A stretch of DNA of 64,000 nucleotides from Ornithinibacillus caprae. Lineage in GTDB: Bacteria; Bacillota; Bacilli; Bacillales; Amphibacillaceae. Positions 37,938 through 64,000 of this stretch are shown in pieces. A program made the translations under genes and the position numbers. The notes beneath the pieces were generated by a model that made no database searches, was not told the DNA's origin, and worked only from the letters and a program-made list of their open reading frames with translations. The stretch covers positions 1-64,000 of the forward strand of contig NZ_WOCA01000018.1 in NCBI RefSeq assembly GCF_009728145.1, in the 5' to 3' direction. Position 1 is the stretch's first letter, and each line of letters opens with the position of its first letter.

Positions 37938-38126
37938 AGACCTCATTAGATCGGTGAGGTAGAGGTGCAGCAGATATAAGTAATTAACAGGAGAATGACA
38001 ACGATGAGAGTTGATGAAAGGATTTGTTGCCGAAGCATAATAAGGGTCAAACTTATTATCGCTGGGATGTCTTTGAATAAGAGTCATACTGTCATGCGAG
38101 TCATGTGCATGGAGAACTACTGATCG
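37938..38126 (+). ncRNA. Lysine riboswitch (L-box) aptamer, copy 1
   Basis: Sequence elements match the L-box core in order: GGTGAGGTAGAGGTGCA (about 37953-37969), AGGAGAATGACAACGATGAG, GATGAAAGG...TTGCCGAAGC (about 38013-38036), GCTGGGATGTC (38061-), ACTGTCATG and GGAGAACTACTG. The side stem CATAATAAG/TTATTATCG is intact. Aptamers of this class bind L-lysine and, when bound, favour a terminator. Downstream are a terminator hairpin (38153-38185) and the amidohydrolase gene. Copy 2 at about 49298 is about 80% alike by eye. Confidence 0.92.
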
Positions 38127-38152
38127 AAATGGAGGATAACGTATATTGTTTT

Positions 38153-38185
38153 ACAATGGTGGTTATTTTCTATCGTTGTTTTTTT
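38153..38185 (+). terminator. Riboswitch-linked terminator, copy 1
   Basis: CAATGGT (38154-38160) pairs with ATCGTTG (38172-38178), including G-U pairs, followed by seven T. It is weaker than copy 2's terminator. The position suggests transcriptional attenuation by lysine. Confidence 0.75.
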
Positions 38186-38275
38186 GTGCTTAAAAAGCCC
38201 ACTATGCATTGTTCCATGCCCTTCATTCAGTTTTTCTCTCCAGTGTACAAAGTAAAATACAAGGAGAGGTACACC

Positions 38276-39897
38276 ATGAGAAAAATATATACCAATGGAA
38301 ATATCTACACGTTTGATTCCACCAAACCAACTGTCCAAGCTGTTGTAATAGAAAGTGGTCGCTTTATTGACATGGGTTCTACAGAGAATATGTTACTTCA
38401 TTGGAACAATGCCCACACGGAAGTAATCTCACTTGACGGCAAAACTGTCACACCTGGTTTAGTAGATAGCCATCTTCATCTATCCATGATTGCAGATAAG
38501 TTTATTAATCTAGACCTTACAGGCATTACTTCAAAACGGGAAATGCTAGGAAAAATTCAAGCAAAAGCAGCTACGCTTAGCCAAGGTGAATGGTTACTAG
38601 GTTTTGGGTGGGATGAGAATTTATTCTCGGATGGTTCTATCCCAACTATTCAAGAGCTAGATTATGTAGCACCAGGAAACCCACTTTTAATTGCTAGAAT
38701 TTGCAGTCACGCCAATGTTGTAAATAGTAAAGCATTAGAAGTGAGTCATTATCATCCAAATATCAGTATTCCTGAAGGCGGTAAAATCGTTCTTGATGAA
38801 GTAACGAAAAAGCCAACTGGGCTGGTATTAGAGTCAGCTAAAGAAATCTTTTTACAACATATTCCTAAAAAATCATTTTCAGAATTAAAGAATGCTATGA
38901 GACTAGCTATACAATTTTCCATCAAACAAGGCTTAACGAGCGTACATTCTAATGACCCTCTATTTTTAGGTGGGTTGCATCAAACCTACCGTATTTACGA
39001 TGAATTGTTGAATGAAGAAAATCTTGGTTTACGTTCTAACCTGTTAATTAATCATGAATTTCTTCCGGATTTACGTGATGAATGTATGCTGGATATGGTA
39101 ACGATACATTAACTATTGGAGCAGTAAAACTATTTGCTGATGGTGCATTTGGCCGAAGAACAGCTTTATTATCTGAGGAGTATGCAGATGATCCAGGAAA
39201 CTATGGTGAAGCAATGTACGACCAGGAAACACTATTTGACATTGTAAAAAGATCTCGTGATTTATCAATGCCTATTGCGGTTCATACCATTGGCGATCAA
39301 GCACTTAAGAATATTCTAGATATACTTGATCAATTTCCGACAGTAACTTATCGTGATCGGCTGATTCACGCACAAGTCGTTACCGAAGATTTAATTAAAC
39401 GACTTGCTAAACCAAGTCGTGTTGCGGATATTCAGCCTAGATTTTTAGCTAGTGATTTCCCTTGGGTACAGGAACGTCTTGGTGAAAAACGATTACCTCT
39501 TGCCTATGCATGGAAATCGTTATTGGATGCTGGTGTTATTTGTGCTGGTGGGTCAGATGCGCCAGTTGAACCAGTAAATCCATTATTAGGTATTCATGCT
39601 GCTGTTACGAGAAGAGTTCCTGATGAAACGTATATGGAATATAATCCAGAACAAAAATTATCCATGAATGAAGCATTTCGTCTATTTACAGAACTAACTG
39701 CTTACGCAACCAATGAAGAAACCACAAAAGGAACAATTTCTAGAGGAAAATTAGCTGATATGACGGTTTATTCTAAAAATCCGTTTACGATGGAAGATGC
39801 CGATGAGTTATTACAAACTGATATCGAAATGACGATTATCGGTGGAGACATAAAATACAATAAAGCAGAAGAAACACAATTAAAGGAAACTTGTTAG
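38276..39897 (+). pseudogene. YtcJ-like amidohydrolase, frameshifted
   Basis: The protein starts at MRKIYTNGNIYTFDSTKPTV, with AAGGAGAGG upstream. It follows the amidohydrolase-superfamily pattern: TPGLVDSHLHLSM (metal HxH), a central lysine/histidine region, then VAVHTIGDQAL, RDRLIHAQVV and CAGGSDAPVEP. The first frame ends at 39112 (LDMVTIH-stop), while the conserved YGNDTLTIGAVKLFADGAFG begins in another frame from about 39085. One base lost near 39080-39095 explains it, unless this is a sequencing error. YtcJ-type enzymes hydrolyse N-substituted amides or formamides. Lysine control by the riboswitch points to a lysine-related acyl compound (inference). Confidence 0.88.
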
Positions 39898-39997: not shown

Positions 39998-41551
39998 TTA
40001 AGCTGAGGCTTTTAATTCATCGGCTTGTTTGAGTCCCCATGTTCGGTTAAAGAGATAAGCTAATATGACAAGAATTACTACTCCAACAATAAGTGCTATA
40101 ATTGCTGAGCCAGTGATTCCCGCAATTAGGAATGAAGCAATACCACTTAGGCCTGCTGTAATCGCAAAAGGCATTTGTGTATTAACATGGTCAATATGAT
40201 CACTCGATGCCCCAGCTGATGAAAGAATAGTCGTATCGGAAATCGGTGAACAATGATCCCCAAAAATCCCACCACTTAGAACGGCTGCAATCGCTAAAAA
40301 CATCGAGATATCCATGGATGCAGCTAGCGGCATCGCAATTGGAACCATAATGGCAAATGTCCCATAAGAAGTACCGGTAGTATAGGCAACAATACCAGCT
40401 ACGATAAACAATAACACTGGAATAACCGCTGGCGCTGTAGTTTGTTCCGCTAGATTCACGATGAAATCTGCTGTACCAAGTGCAGATGTCACACTTCCTA
40501 TCGACCAAGCAAGTGTTAAAATGATATAAACTAGCATCATACTTCTAAACCCTGTAACTACTAGATTAATTGATTCTTTAAAATTAAATAGTTTCTGTTG
40601 CATGCCCATTAGAAGGCCAACAATTACGGCGGCAAATGCTGCCATTAAGATTGACAAGCCTCCACTTGATTCTCCTACTGCCGTTACTAAATCATTTTCA
40701 GGAAATCCACCTGTCCATAATAATAAAGGTGGAATTAATCCAATTAACACAACTAATGGAACGATTAAGTTTCGCATTTTCGGTGTATGACCATCCACCA
40801 TCTGTACATCTGTCATCGAATCATCGGAAGGTGGTTCTGCACCATCCCGCAACAATTTCCCCTCTGTTCTTGCCCGATGCTCAGCCTTTGCCATTGGGCC
40901 ATAGTCCCATCTCTTATAAATGACGATTGCTACAAGTAATAGAGCTAATATTGAATAAAAATTAAATGGAATGGTTCCAAGATATGTCATATACTCCGAA
41001 CCTGTCATACCTAACTCCACAAATTGTGCACCAATTAACCCCATAACAAACACAACCCAAGTAGAAACTGGTGCAAGTAAACACATTGGAGCGGAAGTAG
41101 AATCAACAATATAAGCTAACTTTTCCCGTGAAACACGCATCTTATCGGTTACAGAACGCATAACACTACCAACAGTTAGTGCATTAAAGTAATCTTCGAA
41201 GAAAATAATAATACCAAAAAGCATTGTTGACCCCTGTGCACCACGGTCTGATTTTACCCTTCTAGAGATTGCATGTGCAATAGCGTGAGCTCCACCTGTC
41301 TTTTGTAGAACCGTCACAAGTACTCCAAACAATCCACAATAAAGTAATACTGTTGCACTCCACTCATCACCTAGATTAGGTAAGATAAATTCGCTAAAGC
41401 TGGCATAGATGCCCATCAACGGATTCCAATCATGTACCATCGTTGCGCCCAACCAAACACCAGCAAACAAAGCTGGAATAACATTACGAGTAACAAGCGC
41501 TAATACAATGGCTAGTAACGGTGGTAATAACGAAAGAACACCAAATTCCAT
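39998..41551 (-). CDS. NhaC-family Na+/H+ (amino-acid) antiporter
   Basis: 517 residues; I chose ATG 41551 (MEFGVLSLLPPLLAIVLALV) because AAAGGAG is 8 nt away, while the preceding ATG leaves only 2 nt. About 12 hydrophobic segments. FEDYFNALTVGSVMRSVTDK and GGIFGDHCSPISDTTILSSA are hallmark NhaC/NhaD blocks. NhaC members exchange Na+ for H+; in bacilli a related lysine-regulated member (lysW) has been proposed to import lysine. This gene has no L-box of its own but faces the riboswitch-controlled amidohydrolase. Confidence 0.88.
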   Translation of the reverse strand: MEFGVLSLLPPLLAIVLALVTRNVIPALFAGVWLGATMVHDWNPLMGIYASFSEFILPNLGDEWSATVLLYCGLFGVLVTVLQKTGGAHAIAHAISRRVKSDRGAQGSTMLFGIIIFFEDYFNALTVGSVMRSVTDKMRVSREKLAYIVDSTSAPMCLLAPVSTWVVFVMGLIGAQFVELGMTGSEYMTYLGTIPFNFYSILALLLVAIVIYKRWDYGPMAKAEHRARTEGKLLRDGAEPPSDDSMTDVQMVDGHTPKMRNLIVPLVVLIGLIPPLLLWTGGFPENDLVTAVGESSGGLSILMAAFAAVIVGLLMGMQQKLFNFKESINLVVTGFRSMMLVYIILTLAWSIGSVTSALGTADFIVNLAEQTTAPAVIPVLLFIVAGIVAYTTGTSYGTFAIMVPIAMPLAASMDISMFLAIAAVLSGGIFGDHCSPISDTTILSSAGASSDHIDHVNTQMPFAITAGLSGIASFLIAGITGSAIIALIVGVVILVILAYLFNRTWGLKQADELKASA

Positions 41552-41974
41552 TTTCATTACTCCTTTCTATTTAAAAATTTAATTACACAGTCAGCTACCC
41601 TCCTTTTGTTATTGATGAAAAAGATTTGAGTAGCAAATTGTTGTAAGCGTATTCAAATCTTAATATAACGAATTTTCATTATATTATATTTCTACATACA
41701 GTGGACTATGTCCTGCATTTTTGGGAGGCAATTTTTTAAAAAACTGTTTTCTTTTTCAAACAAAGAATTTAAAGCGTCCTTTATTAATGCTAGTAGGAAA
41801 TTTTTGTAAAACTTGGCATTCGTAGGGTCTTTATGGTAAATGTCTTATGCAGGATAGGAAAGTCTATGCTTTCCTATCTGCAAATGAAAGGAATGAGAAT
41901 CTATCGAAGTTAGTGAAGCAGATCCTCATTCCTTTAAAAAGTTTTAAAAACTAACTGTCTCTCTAAACAGCTAT
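41552..41974. other. Promoter region and terminator between two minus-strand genes
   Basis: It contains the cre-like site and a hairpin (AAAGGAATGAG 41887-41897 with CTCATTCCTTT 41925-41935) that probably ends the upstream hydrolase transcript. No open frame of note. Confidence 0.5.
41642..41655. promoter_or_regulatory. Candidate cre site upstream of the NhaC-type gene
   Basis: TGTAAGCGTATTCA has one mismatch to the cre consensus TGWNANCGNTNWCA. It lies about 90 bp upstream of the minus-strand start. AAGATTTGA/TCAAATCTT arms flank it. By-eye assignment. Confidence 0.4.
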
Positions 41975-49120: not shown

Positions 49121-49297
49121 TGGTATTTCAAACAGTGAACCACTGTTTGATTCATCTTTTACGTATTAGTGGTATCACCGCTAGTTACACTTGGGATAAT
49201 TTTAGCTATTTTGTAAATTTTCCATCTTCCTTCTTATAGCTTATTTTTTCTTGCATATCCTCTATGAATCTTGTATAGTGATAAGTAATTTAATAGT

Positions 49298-49486
49298 AGA
49301 CCTTATCAGATCGGTGAGGTAGAGGTGCAATTAATATAAGTAATCAACAGGAGAATGACACCTATGATTGTTGATGAAAGGATTAGTTGCCGAAGCGTAA
49401 TAAGCTGTCAATCTTATTATTGCTGGGATGTCTTCTGAAAAAGAAGCATACTGTCATGCTATTACAAAAGCATGGAGGACTACTGA
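49298..49486 (+). ncRNA. Lysine riboswitch (L-box) aptamer, copy 2
   Basis: Matches copy 1 in the same order: GATCGGTGAGGTAGAGGTGC (about 49309-49328), AACAGGAGAATGACACC, GATGAAAGGATTAGTTGCCG, AAGCGTAATAAG with TTATTATTGC, GCTGGGATGTC, ATACTGTCATGC and GGAGGACTACTG. L-boxes control lysine synthesis and transport. Here the first gene downstream is a YfcC-type permease, then an M20 amidohydrolase, so both are probably repressed by lysine. A strong terminator follows at 49518-49552. Confidence 0.92.
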
Positions 49487-49517
49487 TCGAAATGGAGGAT
49501 AACGGATATTGTAAAGA

Positions 49518-49552
49518 AACAATGATATGTTATTTTCTATCATTGTTTTTTT
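49518..49552 (+). terminator. Riboswitch-linked terminator, copy 2
   Basis: AACAATGATA pairs perfectly with TATCATTGTT (10 bp), then TTTTT. With the aptamer just upstream, this is the expression platform for transcriptional attenuation. Confidence 0.9.
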
Positions 49553-49633
49553 ATGTTTAAAAACAGGATGAACTTGGCCACTTCATTCCTCAACATCCCC
49601 TCTTTTCAGTTACTCTCTATGCACATCTAACTT

Positions 49634-49790
49634 AAAAAAGCGTAAGTGCCCATTTAGCGACGTACCACTACGCCTGCTCAAAGCAGGTGGTTCAATGTTT
49701 GTTGTTCGACTATTGTCGAACTGTTATCGTACGAAGGTAAGATAAGTCGTACTAGTCGTTAGGTGCTGAAGCTGGACAATATTTTATAGA
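49634..49790 (+). repeat. Structured intergenic repeat before the YfcC-type gene
   Basis: Three nested dyads: GCGTAAGTG with CACTACGC, GCCTGCTCAAAGCAGG, and GTTCGAC TATT GTCGAAC (49704-49721). The 3' end GGTGCTGAAGCTGGACA resembles the end of a repeat I recall from several Bacillaceae genomes (recollection only). It lies between the riboswitch terminator and the start codon, so it is part of the leader mRNA. Confidence 0.55.
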
Positions 49791-49804
49791 AAAGGATGAG
49801 CATC

Positions 49805-51205
49805 ATGAGTACAAATAAAACTCAGGAAAAGAAAAAATTTGAATTTCCCCACGGATTTGTCATTTTATTTAGTTTTATTGTTTTAGTAGCAATTCTTACG
49901 TATTTTATTCCAGCTGGTGAATATGAACGCACTACTACAGAAGATGGTAGAGAAGTCGTAGTAGATGGAACATACCAAACCGTTGAATCAAATCCAGCTG
50001 GCTTTTTCGATATTTTCCAATCGATCCATATCGGTATGGTTGATGCAGCCGGCATTATATTTTTCATCTTCATTGTTGGTGGTGCATTTGGTATTCTTCG
50101 TGCAACCAATACACTAGAAGGAGCATTTGGCTCTTTATCTAAAAGACTAGCAGGAAAAGAATTACTAATGATTCCAGCAATTATGCTATTCTTCGCCATA
50201 GCTGGTGGTACATTTGGAATGGCCGAAGAGGCAATACCTTTTGTTCTTATTCTAGTGCCACTTGCTATTATGATGGGATTTGACTCTATTACTGGTACAG
50301 CAATCGTTATTGTAGGTGTTTATGTTGGATTTGGTTCCGCATTTATGAATCCATTTACTGTTGGGGTTGCTCAAGGAATTGCTGGTCTTCCTACATTCTC
50401 TGGTATGGGAGTAAGATTTATCTTTTGGTTCATTTTTGTTGCAGTATCTATTATCTATGTAATGATGTATGCAAGAAAAATAAAAAAAGACCCAACAAAG
50501 AGTATTATGTATAAAGAAGATTTACAACGCAAAATTGATCCAGAAGTAATGAATCAACAGTCATTAACAAAAAGACAAGCAGTCATTCTTGGAGTTCTTG
50601 TTCTAACGATTATTGGATTAGCACTTGGTGTAATTTTACAAGGATGGTATATTACAGAGATTGCAGCATTATTCCTTGTTATGGGGGTTGTTGTAGGTAT
50701 TATTGGTAAGCTTAAAGTCAATCAAATTGCCGAAGCATTTGTAAAAGGCTGTGAAGAATTGGTTACCGGTGCCTTAATCGTAGGTTTTGCTTATGCTATT
50801 CTAACAATCTTACAGGATTCTAATACAATTGATACTATTTTATATGGCGTATCCAGTGTTGTATCTGGACTTCCATCAAGTTTTTCAGCTATAGGAATGC
50901 TATTAACACAAAGTATGCTAAATGTTATTGTTCCTTCTGGAAGCGGACAAGCAGCACTAAGTATGCCTATTATGGTACCATTAAGTGACCTACTTGGCGT
51001 TGACAGACAAACCGCAGTACTTGCCTTTCAGTACGGAGACGGAATTACAAATATGATTGCACCAACAGCAGCCGTCCTATTAGCAGGACTAGCAATCGCA
51101 AAAATCTCATGGATTAAATGGGTAAAATGGATATGGCCACTTATCCTAATCCAACACATCATAGCAATCATCTATGTAACCATCGCACACCTATTTATTT
51201 GGTAA
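49805..51205 (+). CDS. YfcC-family permease, lysine-riboswitch controlled
   Basis: 466 residues from ATG 49805 (MSTNKTQEKKKFEFPHGFVI), chosen because AAAAGG is 9 nt away; the upstream ATG overlaps that site. About 11-12 segments. FIPAGEYERTTTEDGREVVV, GGAFGILRATNTLEGAFGSL and QSMLNVIVPSGSGQAALSMP match the YfcC/ArcD-like basic-amino-acid or C4-dicarboxylate antiporter family. With an L-box in its leader, lysine or a lysine derivative is the best substrate guess (inference). It is followed by an M20 amidohydrolase 70 bp away. Confidence 0.88.
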   Translation: MSTNKTQEKKKFEFPHGFVILFSFIVLVAILTYFIPAGEYERTTTEDGREVVVDGTYQTVESNPAGFFDIFQSIHIGMVDAAGIIFFIFIVGGAFGILRATNTLEGAFGSLSKRLAGKELLMIPAIMLFFAIAGGTFGMAEEAIPFVLILVPLAIMMGFDSITGTAIVIVGVYVGFGSAFMNPFTVGVAQGIAGLPTFSGMGVRFIFWFIFVAVSIIYVMMYARKIKKDPTKSIMYKEDLQRKIDPEVMNQQSLTKRQAVILGVLVLTIIGLALGVILQGWYITEIAALFLVMGVVVGIIGKLKVNQIAEAFVKGCEELVTGALIVGFAYAILTILQDSNTIDTILYGVSSVVSGLPSSFSAIGMLLTQSMLNVIVPSGSGQAALSMPIMVPLSDLLGVDRQTAVLAFQYGDGITNMIAPTAAVLLAGLAIAKISWIKWVKWIWPLILIQHIIAIIYVTIAHLFIW

Positions 51206-51212
51206 TTTGTCG

Positions 51213-51230
51213 GTGCCTGTCACTTGTCGA
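51213..51230 (+). repeat. Half-copy of the pfl-operon palindrome
   Basis: GTGCCTGTCACTTGTCGA, identical to one arm of the inverted repeat at 33262-33300, without the opposite arm. It lies in the 70-bp gap between the permease and M20 genes. Confidence 0.85.
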
Positions 51231-51275
51231 TTTTTGTCGTTTTAGTTTGATAGTCAACAGGAGGATGTAGTAGTT

Positions 51276-52454
51276 ATGTTAGAGAATCTTTTTAATAGAC
51301 TTCAGGAAATTTATCCAGAGTTAGTTGATATACGTCGGGATCTTCATATGTATCCTGAGCTATCACATCATGAAGTAAACACACCTAAGAAAATAGCTGA
51401 ATATCTTACTAACCTTGGAATAGATGTTCAAACAGGTGTCGGCCGAAGAGGTGTAGTCGGAACACTAGTTGGAGGAAAACCAGGAAAGACTGTAGCTTTA
51501 AGAGCTGATTTTGATGCACTCCCAATTCAAGAAGAAACAGATGTACCATTTAAATCTAAGGTTCCTGGTGTTATGCATGCTTGTGGACATGATCTGCACA
51601 CTGCAACATTGCTAGGGGTTGCAAAGGTTTTGAGTGAAGTAAAAGATCAAATACCTGGCACCATTAAATTTATCCATCAATTTGCAGAAGAAGCTACTCC
51701 CGGTGGAGCACAACCTATGATTGAGGATGGCTGTTTGGAGGGTGTAGACATTATTTACGGTGCGCATGTTATGTCCACTGAACCACTAGGAACAGTGAGT
51801 GTAAAAGAAGGATATTTTTCTTCGGCACAGGATGATTTTAATATTGTTATAAGAGGAAAAGGTGGACATGGTTCCGAGCCACATTTAACTATCGATCCAT
51901 TAGTAACAGGTAGTCAATTAGTTGTTAACCTACAACAGCTTGTAAGCAGACGGGTTAGCCCTCAGCATCCAGCAGTTGTTACAGTTGGTTCCTTCCATAG
52001 TGGGGAAATAAATAACATTATTCCGGACACTGCAACGATAAAAGGAACGGTAAGAACCTATAGTGAAGAAGCACGCTCCATTATTGAGGAAGCTATGGAG
52101 CAACTTACAAGAACTACTTGTGAAGGTGCTGGAGCCGATTTCGATTATGAATATGTCAGAGACTGTCCATCTATATGGAATGACCCGACCGAAACGAATC
52201 GAGTTGCTAATGTTGCTACATCTCTATTTGGAGCAGAGAATGTAAAACAAAACGAGCCAATGAACGGTAGTGAAGATTTTGCTTTCTATCAAAAAGAAAT
52301 ACCTGGAGTTTACTTTATTGTTGGTGGCGGAAACCCAGAAATAAATGCAACGTACCCACACCATCATCCTAAATTTAATATTGATGAACGTTCCATTGTT
52401 GATATAGGAAAAATGTTTATCAGCACGGTGTTTGATTATCTCGGAGAAAATTAA
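51276..52454 (+). CDS. M20-family amidohydrolase (N-acyl-amino-acid deacylase-like)
   Basis: 392 residues. RRDLHMYPELSHHEV, LRADFDALPIQEE, MHACGHDLHTATLLG (metal-binding Cys and His), FAEEATPGGAQPMIEDG (catalytic Glu) and GSEDFAFYQKEIPG are the standard order of M20D carboxypeptidase/aminoacylase enzymes. These remove acyl groups from amino acids such as N-acetyl-lysine or hippurate. Co-transcribed with the lysine-controlled permease, so an acyl-lysine or lysine peptide is likely the substrate (inference). AGGAGGATG before the start. Confidence 0.92.
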   Translation: MLENLFNRLQEIYPELVDIRRDLHMYPELSHHEVNTPKKIAEYLTNLGIDVQTGVGRRGVVGTLVGGKPGKTVALRADFDALPIQEETDVPFKSKVPGVMHACGHDLHTATLLGVAKVLSEVKDQIPGTIKFIHQFAEEATPGGAQPMIEDGCLEGVDIIYGAHVMSTEPLGTVSVKEGYFSSAQDDFNIVIRGKGGHGSEPHLTIDPLVTGSQLVVNLQQLVSRRVSPQHPAVVTVGSFHSGEINNIIPDTATIKGTVRTYSEEARSIIEEAMEQLTRTTCEGAGADFDYEYVRDCPSIWNDPTETNRVANVATSLFGAENVKQNEPMNGSEDFAFYQKEIPGVYFIVGGGNPEINATYPHHHPKFNIDERSIVDIGKMFISTVFDYLGEN

Positions 52455-52455
52455 A

Positions 52456-52497
52456 AAAACGACCTATGTACTGCCACAGTGCAGCATAGGTCGTTTT
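52456..52497. terminator. Bidirectional terminator after the M20 gene
   Basis: AAAACGACCTATG pairs with CATAGGTCGTTTT, with an inner CTGC/GCAG stem; five T follow. It closes the riboswitch-led operon and the convergent YciI gene. Confidence 0.92.
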
Positions 52498-52500
52498 TAT

Positions 52501-52761
52501 TTACTGTTTCATTTCCCACTCATGAATCTCATAACCTCTAGCACCTTGAACGACATACGGATCGTTTTTAGCAAGCTCTTCCGCTTTTTCCATGCTATCA
52601 GCCATATAAATAATGAGTCCACCAGCACCATCAGTAAATCTCCCCTTGGCAAAAACAGCACCTTCCTCTGCCTTTTTCGCCAAGTAGTCTAAGTGATCTT
52701 GTCGATAAGTCTTACTTTTTTCCTCGTCCTTCATTGGTAAAAATACGGCAAAATATTTCAT
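52501..52761 (-). CDS. YciI-like protein
   Basis: 86 residues of the YciI/ferredoxin-like alpha-beta fold: MKYFAVFLPMKDEEKSKTYR, then HLDYLAKKAEEG with the conserved His, and FTDGAGGLIIYMADSMEKAE. YciI proteins form dimers and are of unknown or minor dehydrochlorinase-like function. GGGAGG precedes the ATG. Single gene. Confidence 0.88.
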   Translation of the reverse strand: MKYFAVFLPMKDEEKSKTYRQDHLDYLAKKAEEGAVFAKGRFTDGAGGLIIYMADSMEKAEELAKNDPYVVQGARGYEIHEWEMKQ

Positions 52762-55159: not shown

Positions 55160-58100
55160 TTATCTAGACTTACCAGCCTTTGCTTTTACAGTAACTAGCA
55201 TTGGCTCACTTCGAACGGTTGCATCTTCTCTAACAACCTCTGCAAACAATTCATAGGTACCTTCGTCCAAATTAAGTTTTGTGGTAAATACTCCACTTGG
55301 ATTTGTTGTCACTTCAGCAATTTGTTGGCCATCAGTCATAATCCGAAGAGTTGTATTTGGATCTGCTTTACCACCAACAACGATTTGTCCATTACCACGG
55401 AATTCATCCTCATCCTTTTTCCATTGCGGCTGACTTGGTAACTCTGTTTCTGCATCTTTCGCCCATTCAACTGCTTGAACAAATAGTTGTGTTCCTTCCT
55501 CAGTCCAACCTCGATTCGGACCAACCATATTATTTACTTCAAAAGCTGACAATAACAGGTGTACATGGTCGTTACTTCGGAATGAGTATGCAATGGAATC
55601 GCCTTTTTCTTCCGAATCAACCTTTACGTTTCCAATAATTTTTCCTTGATAATCCTTGAATGTAGCATACGGACTTTTCTCTGCTAATACCTGAATTGAT
55701 TCTGTGTCAAACCCTGCAAAAATTGGATGATCAAGATCACCGGAGATCATTACGTCTCCTTCATTGTAGCCTTGTTGGTCCATACTTGGATTACCTAACG
55801 TTTCACCAAGTAATCGAATTGAACCATCTGTACCCCAGGTATCTAAGAACACAAGGCTTGTTTGATGTTCATCACTAGCTTGCACCAATGCTTCCATGTC
55901 CTCAACCGTTCCCTTACTGGAGTTAACGATAATAATATCGTAAAGGTTCGTATGATCAATAACACTCCAGTCTGTTTCCTCAGCAGCTAAATTATTTTCC
56001 TGTAATAACGAACTTAATTCCCCTTTATAATCACCTAGAACAGCTATGTTATAGGAGCTAATCGTGACATTTAATTCTGTGTTCTGACCATTTTCTATCG
56101 TAACCGTCTCAACTACTGGATGATATCCTTCTTTATTAAAGGTAACCTCATATGTTCCCTCTAATAGCTCGGCAATTTGATAGTTTCCATCCTCGTCCGT
56201 CACAGAAGTGAATTCCATGCCGGTTTCTACTTCTTCAGCAGTTATAGAAACATCTTGTAATCCCTCACCAGAAGATTGTTCCATCACCTGTCCATATAAC
56301 GTCATTTGTTCCGATTCTTCTAATGTAAAGTTCAATTCTACTACATCGCCGACATTTTCGACCATTACTGTCTCCTGAACTGGCTCATAACCAATAGCTT
56401 GAACCGATACCATATGTTCTCCAATTCCCACACCAATAGTATATCTTCCTTGGTCATTCGTCTGAACAGAAATATTGGCTTCTTCAATCATAACAGTTGC
56501 TCCAGCTATTGGATCTCCTTCCGCTGTCTGAACCACACCATTGATTTCTCCAAGAGATGCATTTAGTGCCCAGTCAATTGCATTGATATAAATTGTACGA
56601 GCATCTTCTGTCCATCTATTTTCAGGGCTTCCATAAGAACTTGATGCAAGGCTTCCTAATAAAACATGGACATGGTTGCTGGACCTGAAATCATATGCTA
56701 AACCAGAACCGATGCGACCTTCCTCAGGATGCGTAATATCTGCAATCGTTGTACCACTATAGTTTTCAAATACAGCATATTGTTGATTTGCTCCTTCATT
56801 TACTAATACATCAATTGTATCATCAACACTATACCCTCTAAAGATAGGGTGTTCTTCCAATACTCTATATTCAATAACATTTGGTACAAAACCAGTCGAA
56901 GTTGACTCAGGATCTCCATAGTAATCACGTAAATGGTTGATTGATCCTGCCCCAAATTGATTAGCAAATATCATGCTAACCTGAGCATCGTCGGCAGCAT
57001 CAATTAGTTCCGTAAAGTCTGTTTCACTCATACTAAATGCAGAATCATTAAAGATAACTAGCGCAAAATCGGCAATATTTTCTTTTACTAATCCATGTTC
57101 GTCTCGATCAAATGGAGTAATTTCATACCCATTTTCTTCTAAGAATGGGATAAGACGATTATGATTCAGTGAAGATCCGATCAATGCAATGGCTTCGGAA
57201 TCCTGTAAAGATACATGTACGCTTGTTGTCTCATTCGCTTCAATCGTTACATCCAATGATTGCGGCTGATAACCTGCTGCTGTTACACGAACCTCATAGC
57301 TACCTTCTGGAATTGCTAATGTAAACATACCTTCTGAATCGGTCTCGGCTAACAAAGGAGTTCCAAGTACTTCTACAGTAGCACCTTCGATTAAATCTCC
57401 ACTAGCATTTGCTCGAATTTCTCCAGTTAGTTCTCCAATATTTTCTGATTGAAGAACGAAGCCCTCTTCTACTACTTCTCCATTCGTAACTGTCACTTCA
57501 AAACTATCGGATTGATGACCAAAGGCATCAATTTGAAGCGTATACGTTCCTTCAGGTAGACCTAAGAAGAAATTTCCTTCTCGGTCCGTCATTACTGAAT
57601 GTCCTGTTTCTTCTACAGTCACTTCAGCTTGAATGGATTGCTCACGTTCGTTTGTCACCTGACCTCTTATTTCCCCAGCAAAGCTTTCATTATTTTCAAT
57701 TGCCCACAAGATCGCATTATTAATGATTCTTTCACGATTTTCATCAAAATGAGCATCCTCTGGGTGGAAGCCATATCCAATTGTCATACCACCAAGTAAG
57801 ATTTCTACACTTCCTGTGGTACGTCCTTTAAATCCGACCATATAACCGTCTTCTTCGACACCTTCTTTATCATAATCAGCAAGGATCGTTCCTGTATACT
57901 CATCAAAACCGTAGTAATATCCGGAATTAGCTGTGTATTCAAAGGTTTCATCTACACCTTCAAAGATTGGGTGATCTTCTAAAATTTGTGCAGTTAATGT
58001 ACCTGAACCACTTCCACGATATTCAACTCCAGGATCTCCAAGATAATCAATTAGGTAACGGATACTTCCACGACCACCATGTTGTCCTGTCCAGATAACC

Positions 58101-61100
58101 GATGTTTCGGATTCATCTAACGCTTCAACAAAATCTCTAAATGTGTCTTCATCTGGGATTAAACTATTATTATAGTCAGAGTTAGCAAATACAACATCTA
58201 CTTCATCCAACATTTCTAAGTCATCATAGAACATGGAAACCGTATGATAACCACGATTCTCTAAATATTCAGCTAACGTCGTAGCAGAAGAAGACTGGGC
58301 ATCCACGATTATTCCTACCGTTGGGGATGGCCTTAAATTAATATCTAGTGATTTAGTTTCACTTGGTTCAATTTCAACCGTAAGATTTTCCTGTAAGAAA
58401 TCATCCTTTGTAATAACCACTTCATATGTTCCTGGTTCTAGTACATCGATTCGGTAATAGCCCTGTGCATCTGTCGTTGCTTCCCTAGGATAGCCAATAA
58501 CGTCAATATGCACATCTTCTACCGCATCCATTAACGCACTATTGGTGACAAATCCTTCAAGTGCTCCTACATTACTTTTTTCTTTCATATTAACTATCAA
58601 TGGTTCAATGGATTCGTTCACTTGAATTTCAAACGTTTCTGTATCATAACCATATGCAGTGATTGTAACAATCGCTTTACCGTCAGGAGATGCAATACTA
58701 AAGTCTGCATCCTCTTTCGTTGTATATTCTGTCAATGTTGTTCCGTTCACTTCAACTGTTACTTCTGCATCAAGCGCCTGACCATTCTCATCAGTAACTG
58801 AACCACTAATTACATTAAATTGTTCATATGCAGCCCAAATGACTGCATCCACAAACATATGAAGCCCTGCTTCTGTGTAATCCTCGCCAGTATGAGCTAA
58901 GGCGATACTATGACCACTCATTAACAGCTCAAGACTGTCTCCTGTTCTAGGTTTATACGCTACCCCTAAACCATGTGAATCATTATTTTCCTCATGTTTA
59001 ATATCCGCAAGCGGAAAACCTGAATACTCATCAAATGCAGTCACTCGGCTTCCATTTTGATAGAGAATATTTACCGATTCTCCAGGTTCATGATCACCAA
59101 AAATCGGATGACTTTCATGGACCACATACTGAGCTGCACTTGAACGAACATTAATTCTTTCTCTTAAAGCAGGATCTTCTCGCAAGCTATTTAGATGTTG
59201 AATTCCACCACCACTAAAGTACGTATCGCCATAAATAACACTGACACCATGTTCATCAGCAGCTTGTTCAAATGCATTAAAGTTTGTTTCGTTTATGCTA
59301 CTACCATTATTAAAATAAACCACATCATAGTTTTCAATTTCATCTGCTAGCGTAGAAATGGATGTATAATTTGTAGTTGAAATATTAACCCCAGACAAAA
59401 TCCATTCTAGGTTATCTGAGCTATACGTCCTATCACCTAATATAGCAACACTCGGTGCTGGCGTAAGCTCTTGATTTACCTCTAATGATGCACCAGTAAC
59501 CTCAAATGTGTCAGTTGCAAGCACATAATTTTCATGGTTAAACGAAATGGTATACGTATCAGCAGCTAAATCCGTAAATTCATAGTATCCATTACTAGAC
59601 GTAGTTGCTTCAACTATAACCTCGCCATCAGCATTAGCCAGAACGACAGTTACATCTCCAATTGGGCTTGCTGAATTTGAATCTGTTACTAATCCTGTCA
59701 ACTGCCCTTCATGTGACGCAACTAATTCAATCGTTTCTGAACGCACTTCACCATGTACAAATTCAACCTCAATAACTTGGGTTTCATATCCAGACAAGCG
59801 AACTTCTACCTCGAATACTCCTTCATCGTGATAAATGGAAAATTGACCATTCCCATCTGTATTAGCATGAACACCTGTTTCAAGCACCTCAACTCTAGCT
59901 TCAATCGGGTTACCTTGTTCATCTACCACCTGTCCATCTAGTTGCCCAAAGGTTGAATCCTCAATCAGATAGGAAACACCGTTAAGTAGAATTTCATGTT
60001 GATCTGGCAGCCAATTCTGAGTTGGAGAGTTCCAGGATGCAACTGCATGTGTTGCAAGCAAAAGATGTGCACTATCATCAGAAACTGGTTTATATGCAAC
60101 TCCTGTACCAACTTCACCTAATCGGCCACTTCCTAAGGTTGCTAGACTTCGACCAGAATACCCATTAAACCAAGTGGCTTTTCCACTATTCATTAAGGTT
60201 ACTCGATCACCAACAGATTTATCTCCAAAAATAGGATGCTCTTGTTCAATGATTAGGGATATTCTTGTATCCGTATGATCACTTTGTAATGTTCTTGGAT
60301 CCCCATAAATCTCTGATATATCTTCAATGGAACCATAGTTTGGCCCCCATGTATCAGCAAATACTACGCTGACACCTTGAGCCTTCGCTTCTTCTAGTAA
60401 TGCATCCATATCCGCTTCATCTGGTGTCCAACCTCCAGAAGTATACGCACCATTTAAATAAACAACTTCGTAATTTGATAGTTCCCCTACAATTGTATCC
60501 CATTCACTTTCTTCCGCTGGGATTCCATTTTGATTTAATAGATTACTTACCGTAGAATCATAGTCATTCAATACAGCAACATCAATCGGATCTAATCCAA
60601 GATTTACTTCTGTCATTTGACCAGCAACTACTTCTACGGTTTCCTTCGTATCTACATATCCACTAGCCTGGAGAACTAATTGATAAGTCCCCTCAAAGAC
60701 CTCAGCAAATGTAAAGACACCTTCTTCATTAGTAGTTGCCTCAAGGCCTGAATCTTGAATGACGACAGTTACATCGGAAACTGCTTCACCGGAACGATTG
60801 TCTACAATTTGACCTGACAGCTGACCTTCCTGAACGACATCTAACGAATAGGTTTTGTTATGAACATATCCAGATTGAAACTCCATTGTTTCATGGACTT
60901 GCTCTAATCCATATTTACCGATAGTAACATCATATTCTCCTGGTAAAACAACCAGTTCAAACTTACCTTCTTCATCAGCTTCTGCTTTTAAGTCTGTTCC
61001 TTGAACTCGCGCAATCCCAGATACGGGGTTTCCTTGTGTGTCTTCAATTATTCCCGAAAGGACACCTGGAGAGGAGAATGTTTTAACCCCTGTCTGCGTT

Positions 61101-64000
61101 GCAACCACAATTTGTCCTGCCATAATAGCTGGTGTTGATGAACTGGAAGCATCTAACGTCCATTGGCCACGAATTTGACCACTAAATACATCTATTGCCT
61201 TTAACGCCCCTGTACTGTCAACCATAAACAACATACCATTACTTGAAACTGCTCCATTATTAACAGAAGTTGTTACATATCTATTCTCCCAAATTAATTC
61301 ACCTGTTTGACGATCGAATCCTTTTAAGGATGGATTGGATGCGGAGCTAACAACAACTACATCATCATAAACAACTGGTGATGCAGCTTGCGTATCCCCA
61401 ATTCCTGATGCACTCCATACTTCTTCACCACTATTTGCATCAATTGCCCATAACGAACCATTATTTCCAAAATCCGTACTAAAAGCATAGATAGTATCTC
61501 CAACAACAGCTGGATGAGATGCAAATCCTCCTCTAGAAATTTCAAATGTCCATTGCTCACTTCCATCTTGCTTGGATAATGCATACAACGTACTTCCTTC
61601 GACACTACCTAAAATTAATTGATCCCCAGCTAAAGCTGCACCAAAATAACTATCACTATTAATAGAAGTTGTCCAAATAGTGTCTCCTGTTTCTGCATCC
61701 AAAGCACTGACTACGGTCTCATCATCCGTGCTTGATGTTAAATAAAGTGATCCATTTTCATATAATGGCGTTTCATAGATAGGTAGATTGCCAGTAGTAG
61801 TTTCCCATACTACTACACCACTATCTATATTCAGTGCATACACTCTTCCATTTTGACCACCAGTAACAAACACCATATCCCCATTTATAGTAGGAGTTGA
61901 TCGGTTAAGACTTCCTGTACGAAAGGTCCATTTTTCCTCACCATTTTCTAAATCAAACGCCTGCACGTTTCCTTGGTCAGTTGTAACGACAACTGTATCT
62001 TCATTTACTGCTGGAGAAGAAAATACAACATTTCCACTTACACCTGCACTCCATGTTTCCTCTAATAACGCTAACGAAATGTCCTCTTCCGAAACCGCAT
62101 TTCTACTATTGTTATTATTAGCTGTCTGCCAATTAGAGTCGAAAGAAAGCTGACTATCTTCGACTTGAATATCTACATTAACATGTTCATTAACTAAAAC
62201 TTGTTCACCAAAGCTAGTTATACCTTTTCCAGTTACAACTAGCTGGTACTCTCCCTCAGGAACACCTTGAATAGAAAAAGTTCCACGTTCATCGGTACGA
62301 ACTGCCTCCAATGGTGTATCTTGTACCTGCACATAAGCAAAAGCAACTGGTGTACCATCTGCTTTAGTTATCGTACCTTCTATATTAAATTGATCAGCCG
62401 CAATTAATTGCCAATCGACTTCCAAGATTTCATCTTTAGCAATGGTTACTGTCCATTCACCAGTATGGTAGCCAAAAGCTTCTACAGTAACATCATGAGT
62501 TCCTTCTCTTAATTTAAATGCAAACGAACCGTCTTCAGCCACTTCCATATCCAAATTCTCTTCTTCAATAATTACTCGAGCTGGAATCGGGTCTCCATTT
62601 TCATCGGTAACCGTTCCAATCACCTCACCGGCATAGCCCGCTTCTGTTACAGCTTGATAAGCATTAATAATCCCATGTCCATACAAATCATTAGGTAAAT
62701 CACCCATATGCATCTCACTACGTGCAGTTTGTTGTAGCAACTCTCTCATTTCTTCAATACTTAAATCTGGGTTAGCTTGTAAAATAAGTGCAATGACACC
62801 GGTAGCATGTGGGGCAGCCATAGAAGTACCACTTATTGTATGATAACCATTTCCTGGCCAAGCAGAATAAATTTCATGTCCAGGAGCAGAAACTTCAGGC
62901 TTTAGATAACGCTCCCCATCCCAAAATACTGGTCCACGACTAGAAAAACTAGCGATTTGGTCATTAATATCCGTTGCACCAATTGCTAATGATTCTGGGA
63001 AACTAGCAGGAGATCCAATTGTCTGTGATCCCGGCCCATCATTTCCAGCAGCAAATAAAGGAATAATCCCTGCTGCAACCCATGCTTGGACACCTTCATA
63101 AAAATTTGTGTTATACGTATTAGAATTTCCCCATGAGTTATTTACAACGTGTGGAGCATTTGCTGGGTCTCCACCGGGAGCTAAAAACCATTGAAACGCT
63201 TGGTGAATACCAGACTCACTAGCATAACCACGGTCATCAAAAATCTTGGCTGCAATCCACTCTGCACCTGGTGCAACACCGATTGGCTCACCATCACCAC
63301 CACCAACTGCTGTTCCAGCTACATGTGTACCATGGCCATTACCATCGTGCGGAGTACCATATCCATTTCCTGAAAAATCTGCCCAAGAAGATGTATGATT
63401 CCCATCACGTCCTCGGTAATTATGGGATAAAGCCTCATGAGTACCTTCTACTCCAGTATCCATAATTCCAACAACGATTCCTTCTCCATCAACTCCATAT
63501 TGCCCCCACACATCTGGAGCATTTACTTTTTCTAATCCCCACTCTGGTAAACGAGGAGAAGAATCCTCAACTGTAACTTCTGGAACCTCGTATATTTCTT
63601 CACGTAAGATTTTTTCTACATCATCTCGCTCAGAAATTACTTTTAACGCTTCCTCTGTCACATTAGCTGCTACCCCATTAATTATCCATAATGGCTGCAC
63701 ATTTTCTACTTGCTTTTTCTTTGATAAATCATCTAATTGTTTTAATAGATTGGTCTGCGATTTTTCAGCAACATTTTGCAAATGACTTTGAACTTTTATA
63801 ATCCGTTCCGTTCGATTCGAAGCTTGTTCTGCTTCACGGAATAAACTCACTTGATCAGAGTCATCCTTCATATGGATAATCACATCGACCGTTTCTTCTT
63901 CCTCAAATGCAGCAAAGAGACCTTTCTCAACCTTACCTTCTAGTTTTTCCTCGGTTTGCTGCGATTCTTTCTCAGAGGCTTGTCCACTTTTTTCTAGTCC
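55160..64000 (-). CDS. Giant multidomain S8 serine protease (5' end outside window)
   Basis: At least 2,946 residues; the frame stays open to the right edge, so the signal peptide lies outside. Counting from the internal Met at 63883: a subtilisin-type domain follows an inhibitor-like region, with Asp142 (GIMDTGVEGTH), His184 (GNGHGTHVAGT) and Ser354 (SGTSMAAPHATG). Then come two carboxypeptidase-regulatory-like domains, a PQQ-type beta-propeller (about 61070-62130), two more such domains, and five repeats of a ThuA/glutaminase-I-like module, each preceded by two regulatory-like domains except that the first pair is counted above. An Ig-like C-terminal domain ends the protein, with no LPxTG or SLH anchor. 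Bacillopeptidase F-like in the protease part; presumably a secreted or surface enzyme. Confidence 0.92.
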   Translation of the reverse strand, partial: GLEKSGQASEKESQQTEEKLEGKVEKGLFAAFEEEETVDVIIHMKDDSDQVSLFREAEQASNRTERIIKVQSHLQNVAEKSQTNLLKQLDDLSKKKQVENVQPLWIINGVAANVTEEALKVISERDDVEKILREEIYEVPEVTVEDSSPRLPEWGLEKVNAPDVWGQYGVDGEGIVVGIMDTGVEGTHEALSHNYRGRDGNHTSSWADFSGNGYGTPHDGNGHGTHVAGTAVGGGDGEPIGVAPGAEWIAAKIFDDRGYASESGIHQAFQWFLAPGGDPANAPHVVNNSWGNSNTYNTNFYEGVQAWVAAGIIPLFAAGNDGPGSQTIGSPASFPESLAIGATDINDQIASFSSRGPVFWDGERYLKPEVSAPGHEIYSAWPGNGYHTISGTSMAAPHATGVIALILQANPDLSIEEMRELLQQTARSEMHMGDLPNDLYGHGIINAYQAVTEAGYAGEVIGTVTDENGDPIPARVIIEEENLDMEVAEDGSFAFKLREGTHDVTVEAFGYHTGEWTVTIAKDEILEVDWQLIAADQFNIEGTITKADGTPVAFAYVQVQDTPLEAVRTDERGTFSIQGVPEGEYQLVVTGKGITSFGEQVLVNEHVNVDIQVEDSQLSFDSNWQTANNNNSRNAVSEEDISLALLEETWSAGVSGNVVFSSPAVNEDTVVVTTDQGNVQAFDLENGEEKWTFRTGSLNRSTPTINGDMVFVTGGQNGRVYALNIDSGVVVWETTTGNLPIYETPLYENGSLYLTSSTDDETVVSALDAETGDTIWTTSINSDSYFGAALAGDQLILGSVEGSTLYALSKQDGSEQWTFEISRGGFASHPAVVGDTIYAFSTDFGNNGSLWAIDANSGEEVWSASGIGDTQAASPVVYDDVVVVSSASNPSLKGFDRQTGELIWENRYVTTSVNNGAVSSNGMLFMVDSTGALKAIDVFSGQIRGQWTLDASSSSTPAIMAGQIVVATQTGVKTFSSPGVLSGIIEDTQGNPVSGIARVQGTDLKAEADEEGKFELVVLPGEYDVTIGKYGLEQVHETMEFQSGYVHNKTYSLDVVQEGQLSGQIVDNRSGEAVSDVTVVIQDSGLEATTNEEGVFTFAEVFEGTYQLVLQASGYVDTKETVEVVAGQMTEVNLGLDPIDVAVLNDYDSTVSNLLNQNGIPAEESEWDTIVGELSNYEVVYLNGAYTSGGWTPDEADMDALLEEAKAQGVSVVFADTWGPNYGSIEDISEIYGDPRTLQSDHTDTRISLIIEQEHPIFGDKSVGDRVTLMNSGKATWFNGYSGRSLATLGSGRLGEVGTGVAYKPVSDDSAHLLLATHAVASWNSPTQNWLPDQHEILLNGVSYLIEDSTFGQLDGQVVDEQGNPIEARVEVLETGVHANTDGNGQFSIYHDEGVFEVEVRLSGYETQVIEVEFVHGEVRSETIELVASHEGQLTGLVTDSNSASPIGDVTVVLANADGEVIVEATTSSNGYYEFTDLAADTYTISFNHENYVLATDTFEVTGASLEVNQELTPAPSVAILGDRTYSSDNLEWILSGVNISTTNYTSISTLADEIENYDVVYFNNGSSINETNFNAFEQAADEHGVSVIYGDTYFSGGGIQHLNSLREDPALRERINVRSSAAQYVVHESHPIFGDHEPGESVNILYQNGSRVTAFDEYSGFPLADIKHEENNDSHGLGVAYKPRTGDSLELLMSGHSIALAHTGEDYTEAGLHMFVDAVIWAAYEQFNVISGSVTDENGQALDAEVTVEVNGTTLTEYTTKEDADFSIASPDGKAIVTITAYGYDTETFEIQVNESIEPLIVNMKEKSNVGALEGFVTNSALMDAVEDVHIDVIGYPREATTDAQGYYRIDVLEPGTYEVVITKDDFLQENLTVEIEPSETKSLDINLRPSPTVGIIVDAQSSSATTLAEYLENRGYHTVSMFYDDLEMLDEVDVVFANSDYNNSLIPDEDTFRDFVEALDESETSVIWTGQHGGRGSIRYLIDYLGDPGVEYRGSGSGTLTAQILEDHPIFEGVDETFEYTANSGYYYGFDEYTGTILADYDKEGVEEDGYMVGFKGRTTGSVEILLGGMTIGYGFHPEDAHFDENRERIINNAILWAIENNESFAGEIRGQVTNEREQSIQAEVTVEETGHSVMTDREGNFFLGLPEGTYTLQIDAFGHQSDSFEVTVTNGEVVEEGFVLQSENIGELTGEIRANASGDLIEGATVEVLGTPLLAETDSEGMFTLAIPEGSYEVRVTAAGYQPQSLDVTIEANETTSVHVSLQDSEAIALIGSSLNHNRLIPFLEENGYEITPFDRDEHGLVKENIADFALVIFNDSAFSMSETDFTELIDAADDAQVSMIFANQFGAGSINHLRDYYGDPESTSTGFVPNVIEYRVLEEHPIFRGYSVDDTIDVLVNEGANQQYAVFENYSGTTIADITHPEEGRIGSGLAYDFRSSNHVHVLLGSLASSSYGSPENRWTEDARTIYINAIDWALNASLGEINGVVQTAEGDPIAGATVMIEEANISVQTNDQGRYTIGVGIGEHMVSVQAIGYEPVQETVMVENVGDVVELNFTLEESEQMTLYGQVMEQSSGEGLQDVSITAEEVETGMEFTSVTDEDGNYQIAELLEGTYEVTFNKEGYHPVVETVTIENGQNTELNVTISSYNIAVLGDYKGELSSLLQENNLAAEETDWSVIDHTNLYDIIIVNSSKGTVEDMEALVQASDEHQTSLVFLDTWGTDGSIRLLGETLGNPSMDQQGYNEGDVMISGDLDHPIFAGFDTESIQVLAEKSPYATFKDYQGKIIGNVKVDSEEKGDSIAYSFRSNDHVHLLLSAFEVNNMVGPNRGWTEEGTQLFVQAVEWAKDAETELPSQPQWKKDEDEFRGNGQIVVGGKADPNTTLRIMTDGQQIAEVTTNPSGVFTTKLNLDEGTYELFAEVVREDATVRSEPMLVTVKAKAGKSR
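55445..60590 (-). repeat. Five large repeats inside the giant protease
   Basis: Approximate modules: M1 59955-60590, M2 58810-59456, M3 57690-58325, M4 56555-57200, M5 55445-56058. Each begins with a short strand like VAVLNDYDST, continues VVYxNxxx, SVIFADTWG, GSIxxLxxxxGDP, EHPIFxG, GYSGxxLA, GxGVAYKP and HVLLxxH, and ends WTxDxxxIxxNAVxWA. Between modules lie pairs of seven-strand carboxypeptidase-regulatory-like domains (GQLTGLVTDS, GYYEFTDLAADTYTISF type). The DNA repeats are diverged, so duplication is old. Confidence 0.85.

Follow-up and report, generated by a model that had tools for sequence, protein, structure and literature searches.

The 64,000-nucleotide stretch of Ornithinibacillus caprae DNA analysed here (the window; positions 1 to 64,000 of contig NZ_WOCA01000018.1, assembly GCF_009728145.1) carries on its forward strand a lysine riboswitch aptamer (L-box) followed by a transcription terminator, a gene for a DcuC/YfcC-family permease, and a gene for an M20D amidohydrolase. 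The aptamer is full length (49312-49490; RF00168 by cmscan, model positions 1-182, 126.1 bits, E 2.2e-33, gathering score 30) and is the second lysine riboswitch of the window, as an earlier note made from the letters alone had proposed. The terminator that the same note had placed between aptamer and permease is also present (terminator 1, 49512-49556); its two arms of 16 nucleotides (nt) each (49512-49527 and 49538-49553) are 94% complementary and are followed by a T run. Aptamer and terminator 1 together fold 3.6 standard deviations below dinucleotide shuffles, and a comparable hairpin with T run can be read in all 13 aligned leaders. A proposed antiterminator has its 5' strand, GGAGGATAAC, at 49494-49503, pairing with 49529-49538 inside terminator 1; of its strands, GGAGGATAAC is exact in 11 and GTTATTTTC is found in 12 of the 13 leaders. 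A probable sigma-A promoter (TTGCAT, 17 nt, TATAGT; 49251-49279), like the antiterminator read from the sequence, precedes the aptamer, and comparison of the 100 nt upstream of the 13 leaders found TTGACA at this stretch in five of the 12 others. A simple motif scan of the window listed neither this promoter nor the two terminators of the operon.

The permease gene (49805-51205) is listed as an open reading frame from 49796, and its start is probably the ATG at 49805, behind AAAGGATG, the same as in relatives in the leader alignment. The protein matches Pfam DcuC (PF03606) with 393 bits against a cut-off of 23.1, over residues 17-465 of 469, and is a weak relative of AbgT. The amidohydrolase gene (51276-52454) encodes an M20 enzyme, as anticipated, with 400 bits to TIGR01891 (cut-off 153.75); the motifs HACGHD, AEE, GAHV, and HHHPKF, which we take to be the metal-binding and catalytic motifs of the M20D enzyme, are all found in it. 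It scores 423 bits against the CpsA carboxypeptidase model NF040868 (cut-off of 500 not reached) and is related to aminobenzoyl-glutamate utilisation protein; its nearest solved relatives by sequence are an M20 peptidase (4ewt), YxeP (1ysj), an IAA-amino acid hydrolase homologue (1xmb), and an N-alpha-acyl-glutamine aminoacylase (6slf). A paralogue elsewhere in the genome is 49% identical. The unit is closed, again as first read, by a terminator at 52455-52498 with an A run before and a T run after it (hairpin z -7.2, fold of 52452-52502), common to the operon and a convergent YciI-like gene.

The window's genome has four L-boxes and the 11 genomes of the genus have 28, which precede the permease gene (10), genes of the Na+/H+ antiporter family (10 of a commoner and 2 of a rarer type), lysC (4), and a gene for a YtcJ-like amidohydrolase (2). 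Family models were used to check these names on two antiporters and on one member of every other kind: of the antiporters, the rarer type passes TIGR00931 (NhaC) and the commoner matches Pfam Na_H_antiporter only, the lysC product passes aspartate kinase models, and the YtcJ-like protein matches Pfam Amidohydro_3. The permease occurs in 10 of the 11 genus genomes (E <= 1e-60), some with extra, more distant copies, and in all ten the best copy has an L-box before it and the M20D gene after it. In a family sample of 30 loci (best permease copy per genome), an L-box stands at 13, comprising the ten genus genomes and three further family genomes. At each of these 13 a closely related M20D gene directly follows the permease, the copy at L050 being split over two frames. 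Put the other way, L-boxes are found at 13 of the 16 loci with a closely related M20D gene and at none of the 14 others; the pair without an L-box is seen at L048, L053, and L054. The 14 others comprise L069, where the permease is followed by a 42% M20D relative; 12 loci at which the only M20 relative nearby is one of 23-29%; and L059, with none; the L065 locus ends short behind the permease. This co-occurrence, a check that the earlier note had named, gives good support to its proposal that the permease-M20D operon is under lysine control. On a tree the L-box label needs two changes (L059, with a stop inside, and the short L065 left out), so that the element may have been gained twice, or gained once and lost once.

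Beyond the family sample, Bhargavaea cecembensis (L098) has the pair without an L-box. The wider scan covered at least 75 named loci, 60 by cmscan and 15 by a pattern that recovers 56 of 62 known L-boxes; the idea that YfcC relatives carry an L-box throughout the family was rejected, with one such element at the 60 loci seen by cmscan (among the matches listed). In a sampled clostridial order the permease is present in 58 of 393 genomes (E <= 1e-120). Among 28 clostridial genomes searched for L-boxes, 23 have the permease at this threshold and 18 of those also have an L-box; no L-box among the matches listed adjoins a permease that passes the threshold. At L263 and L264 a 42% permease is followed by a 38-39% M20D gene, and neither locus coincides with an L-box listed for its genome. 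An M20 search in the family of G161 gave matches of at most 43% identity and yielded nothing further.

Downstream of terminator 1 lies a conserved segment, here called D (about 49613-49628), able to pair with either of two partners: the aptamer 3' strand at 49470-49478 (the 3' side of P5 and the following joining strand) or the ribosome-binding site at 49794-49803. Both matches are weak in the window. D is predicted to cover the ribosome-binding site and its spacer (49793-49804) in the OFF state. Between D and the ribosome-binding site the window has a 145-nt insert (49636-49780), recognised from the leader alignment; it folds upon itself (-50.8 kcal/mol) and is missing from the nine other aligned genus members. 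The earlier note had mentioned neither D nor this insert. A D helix with the ribosome-binding site across the insert is predicted, with nine pairs between 49619-49628 and 49794-49803 at probabilities of 0.899-0.999, and a promoter scan listed no promoter inside the insert. Partial copies of the insert occur at two other places in the same genome (G000:C4 and G000:C36), and it may be a small dispersed repeat.

D could be located in all 13 aligned permease (yfcC) leaders. In the window it pairs with the aptamer strand over 9 consecutive pairs, as it does in one of the nine other genus members; in the remaining eight the run is 13-16 pairs long. By duplex energy, the nine other genus leaders had 1-30 of 300 shuffles as good for D with the aptamer and 2-14 of 300 for D with the ribosome-binding site; in a joint test, in which one segment must match both partners, 0 or 1 of 200 shuffles did as well. 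The three further leaders, L044, L055, and L057, gave 1, 15, and 1 of 200 in the joint test; in the latter two D looks, by eye, like the 5' half of another hairpin, one followed by a T run. Leaders of the commoner antiporter type have a different D (TATCTCCATG) that matches a different ribosome-binding site (ATGGAGGTA), with at most 4 of 200 shuffles as good in eight of ten; the other two are L088 (35) and L003 (52, with a misassigned start), in which the duplex-energy test is weak as well (D with aptamer 20 and 16, D with ribosome-binding site 119 and 76 of 300, respectively). The family sample consists mainly of dapA leaders, judged by where the proteins start (L012 is confirmed as one); 18 of its 29 tested leaders reached at most 3 of 200 in the joint test. 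In that test the start of L037 is probably misassigned and L033 has none; in the duplex-energy test no start was found for L085. The joint test was negative for four lysC leaders (52-175 of 200) and unconvincing for the ytcJ leaders (35 and 46) and the rarer antiporter type (9 and 24). The duplex-energy test was likewise negative for lysC leaders, save D with the ribosome-binding site in L092 (6 of 300), and weak in the two ytcJ leaders; the two leaders of the rarer antiporter type were weak in it as to D with the aptamer. Several dapA leaders, including L012, L017, L022, L027, and L032, were seen to have a segment matching the ribosome-binding site behind the terminator, in a serial design.

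The best aptamer-pairing and best ribosome-binding-site-pairing segments, sought separately, share 8 nt or more in all 11 yfcC leaders tested (3.5 expected) and in all eight antiporter leaders tested (4.7 expected); lysC leaders gave 1 of 4 against 2.3 expected, and the test is silent for dapA, because the 20 of 26 observed is about the 20.1 expected. When a segment was chosen by its aptamer pairing and then offered the ribosome-binding site of its own or of another class, the antiporter leaders clearly preferred their own (20.2 vs 12.9); segments chosen by ribosome-binding-site pairing clearly preferred the aptamer strand of their own class in yfcC (27.9 vs 18.8) and dapA leaders (19.3 vs 14.6). 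These overlap and preference tests exclude L003, L088, L033, L037, L040, L055, L057, L036, and the ytcJ and rarer-antiporter leaders. In accessibility modelling, holding D unpaired made the ribosome-binding site more accessible in 7 of 10 yfcC leaders, often slightly, and in all 7 antiporter leaders tested (7 of 10 were taken).

Taken as a whole, these observations are best explained, we consider with slightly better than even confidence, by a lysine OFF switch on an operon for uptake and hydrolysis of a lysine compound, with D as a translation lock. What the sequences show directly is the aptamer with its terminator, the constant order of the genes, the motifs of the hydrolase, and the complementary stretches; the D switch and the lysine-conjugate substrate are inferred, and the OFF logic is taken over from other L-boxes. 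With lysine bound, terminator 1 would form, and on transcripts that read through it D would pair with the ribosome-binding site and block translation; with lysine absent, the antiterminator would form and D would be held by the free aptamer 3' strand, leaving the ribosome-binding site open. The ability of D to pair with either the aptamer strand or the ribosome-binding site suggests that a single aptamer operates first a terminator and then a lock on translation. We consider it slightly more probable than not that, in this bacterial family, many of the lysine riboswitches work as single-aptamer two-stage devices of this kind, a terminator followed by a D lock in which the ribosome-binding site imitates a piece of the aptamer, and that the second stage can instead be a second terminator (L055 and L057). 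Judged by the matches, D-type segments appear to precede most of the Na+/H+ antiporter and part of the dapA genes, and not lysC. Should the two-stage switch prove real, a single sensor of a small molecule could gate transcription and translation in series, an arrangement that could explain tight repression and that embodies a simple design principle, a ribosome-binding site imitating an aptamer strand.

As to the two proteins, the permease would bring in a small lysine-containing compound, perhaps an N-acyl-lysine or a short lysine peptide, from which the M20D hydrolase would release lysine inside the cell. Lysine control points to lysine as the product, and the retention of the pair at 13 loci with an L-box and four without favours a shared substrate. 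Uptake with intracellular release of lysine from a conjugate is a plausible best guess. That control also offers a direct handle for finding the substrate of the gene pair.

Several results weigh against this interpretation. For the leader, the D of the window itself is weak: with the insert left out, 12 of 200 shuffles are as good in the joint pairing with aptamer strand and ribosome-binding site, and with the insert kept, 165 and 196 of 300 shuffles are as good by duplex energy, which is not significant. Preference for the partner of the own class is weak for yfcC segments chosen by aptamer pairing (15.0 vs 12.9) and lacking for dapA segments chosen in the same way (12.1 vs 11.8) and for antiporter segments chosen by ribosome-binding-site pairing (15.7 vs 15.6); holding D unpaired made the ribosome-binding site less accessible in 3 of 10 yfcC leaders; and the leaders of one genus are not independent, the shuffle counts moreover being uncorrected for multiple testing. 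For the operon, O. californiensis alone has an L-box among the 60 permease loci scanned in the wider genome collection (among the matches listed). The best NCBIfam match of the permease, YfcC (NF008611), scores 416 bits and stays under its cut-off of 500; the protein is a DcuC-family relative of YfcC and is not assigned as the NF008611 equivalog. No substrate was found for the permease or the M20D enzyme, and a literature search for M20 enzymes acting on N-acetyl-lysine returned none among the matches listed.

The permease might instead import or exchange lysine itself, with the M20D enzyme trimming unrelated N-acyl amino acids or dipeptides from other routes and the operon being shared because both help at lysine shortage. 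The 12 of 28 genus L-boxes that precede antiporter-family genes speak for this, as does the NCBI name of the best-matching permease family (NF008611), putative basic amino acid antiporter; the constancy of the pair, kept at all 13 L-box loci and also at L048, L053, L054, and L098, speaks against it, and we regard it as possible at rather less than even chance. A second alternative makes the M20D enzyme the N-acetyl-diaminopimelate deacetylase of lysine biosynthesis (DapL) and the permease incidental. DapL is itself an M20D enzyme. Elsewhere an amidohydrolase gene is part of some biosynthetic operons that L-boxes control, according to a 2017 survey of lysine riboswitches (PMC5584792). However, another M20D gene (TIGR01891, 278 bits), 34% identical to that of the operon, stands directly behind the dapD acetyltransferase gene (TIGR03532, 378 bits, over the cut-off) and is the likely DapL. 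This fits the view that the enzyme of the operon, whose gene adjoins the permease, is probably not DapL; its assignment as such was disfavoured. The presence of lysA in 11 of 11 genus genomes, by which lysine can probably be made, likewise counts against this alternative, which we consider very improbable.

It is also conceivable, though we give it well under an even chance, that D is conserved for some other reason, such as a protein site, an RNase site, or a plain hairpin hiding the ribosome-binding site, and that terminator 1 alone exerts lysine control. The mixed accessibility results for yfcC leaders and the weak own-partner preference in some classes would fit, as would the position of D downstream of terminator 1, where it cannot affect termination. 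This account has more difficulty with two unrelated D sequences, those of the yfcC and antiporter leaders, that each match their own ribosome-binding site and aptamer strand, and with the 18 of 29 further family leaders that match both while the four lysC leaders do not. Finally, the insert may have uncoupled or altered control in this genome, leaving the operon partly constitutive. Its absence from the nine other aligned genus members and the shorter match of D to the aptamer in the window favour such a change; but the insert folds upon itself, the D helix with the ribosome-binding site is predicted across it with a probability near or above 0.9 for each pair, neither the aptamer nor terminator 1 is damaged, and the promoter scan lists no site in it. 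We regard such a change as unlikely.

Some features lie outside the operon. The gene behind the first L-box of the window (37952-38127, 115.4 bits) codes for a YtcJ-like amidohydrolase and is broken into two frames, 38105-39112 and 39082-39897; in genome G101 (L071) a relative with a Pfam Amidohydro_3 match stands behind an L-box and is unsplit in the stretch seen. Convergent to the split gene on the reverse strand is a further Na+/H+ antiporter-family gene (39998-41557, PF03553), before which cmscan of the window found no RF00168 match. Another L-box of the window's genome precedes an antiporter-family gene (L006, 5184-6844 of G000:C7) that is also split over two frames, and the counterparts of this gene at nine relatives' loci are in one frame in the stretch seen; decay and assembly error are indistinguishable as causes of the L006 split. 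The two leaders of the rarer antiporter type (L002 and L074) contain, between terminator and gene, a short upstream reading frame that has a ribosome-binding site of its own. An open reading frame of 2907 amino acids on the reverse strand (55160-63883) resembles, from its translation, a subtilisin-type protease with many repeated domains.

Among known systems, the gene pair recalls AbgT with AbgA/AbgB, a transporter and M20D hydrolases for uptake and cleavage of p-aminobenzoyl-glutamate: both couple a transporter to M20D hydrolysis, and the window's pair would work in the same way, by taking up an N-acylated amino acid and cleaving it inside the cell. The window's pair differs in having a DcuC family permease, one hydrolase gene, and a lysine riboswitch. 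A closer likeness exists in Clostridioides difficile, where a 2024 review (PMC11477304) places a lysine riboswitch ahead of two genes, yfcC and one for an M20D amidohydrolase (CD3100-3099), calls the operon apparent, and calls the function of YfcC uncharacterised; both genes fall together in a WalRK expression table (PMC9210968). The element, the two gene families, and their order are the same as in the window; the lineage is distant, and the likeness rests on these features as described. Because the review lists the pair for C. difficile, the statement of the earlier note that no such pair under an L-box is described does not hold: the gene pair of the window adds a member to an arrangement already in print. 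The 2017 survey (PMC5584792), in the passages seen, does not name the permease-M20D pair. The pair, reported from two distant groups of bacteria, represents a lysine-linked uptake function still to be solved.

For the leader, the nearest precedents are riboswitches with two outputs. Barrick and Breaker (2007; PMC2258182) described dual transcription and translation attenuation in which the ribosome-binding site lies inside the terminator; as proposed here, one aptamer could block transcription and then translation, but the terminator and the ribosome-binding-site lock of the window would be separate and in series. Tandem SAM-II/SAM-V riboswitches (PMC9481103) likewise place a transcription stage before a translation stage, using two aptamers where in the window one would serve both. 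The E. coli lysC lysine riboswitch (one aptamer, with translation and mRNA decay as outputs; PMC8124236) and dual TPP riboswitches (ribosome-binding site and Rho-dependent termination; PMC10907184) obtain two outputs per aptamer, again as proposed here, and in the parts seen no intrinsic terminator is described ahead of a separate ribosome-binding-site lock. No riboswitch in which one aptamer serves both an intrinsic terminator and a separate lock on the ribosome-binding site in series appeared among the literature matches listed or in the passages seen of these papers, which is not proof of absence. Set beside these systems, what is new here is the leader architecture: a D segment between terminator and ribosome-binding site with two alternative partners.

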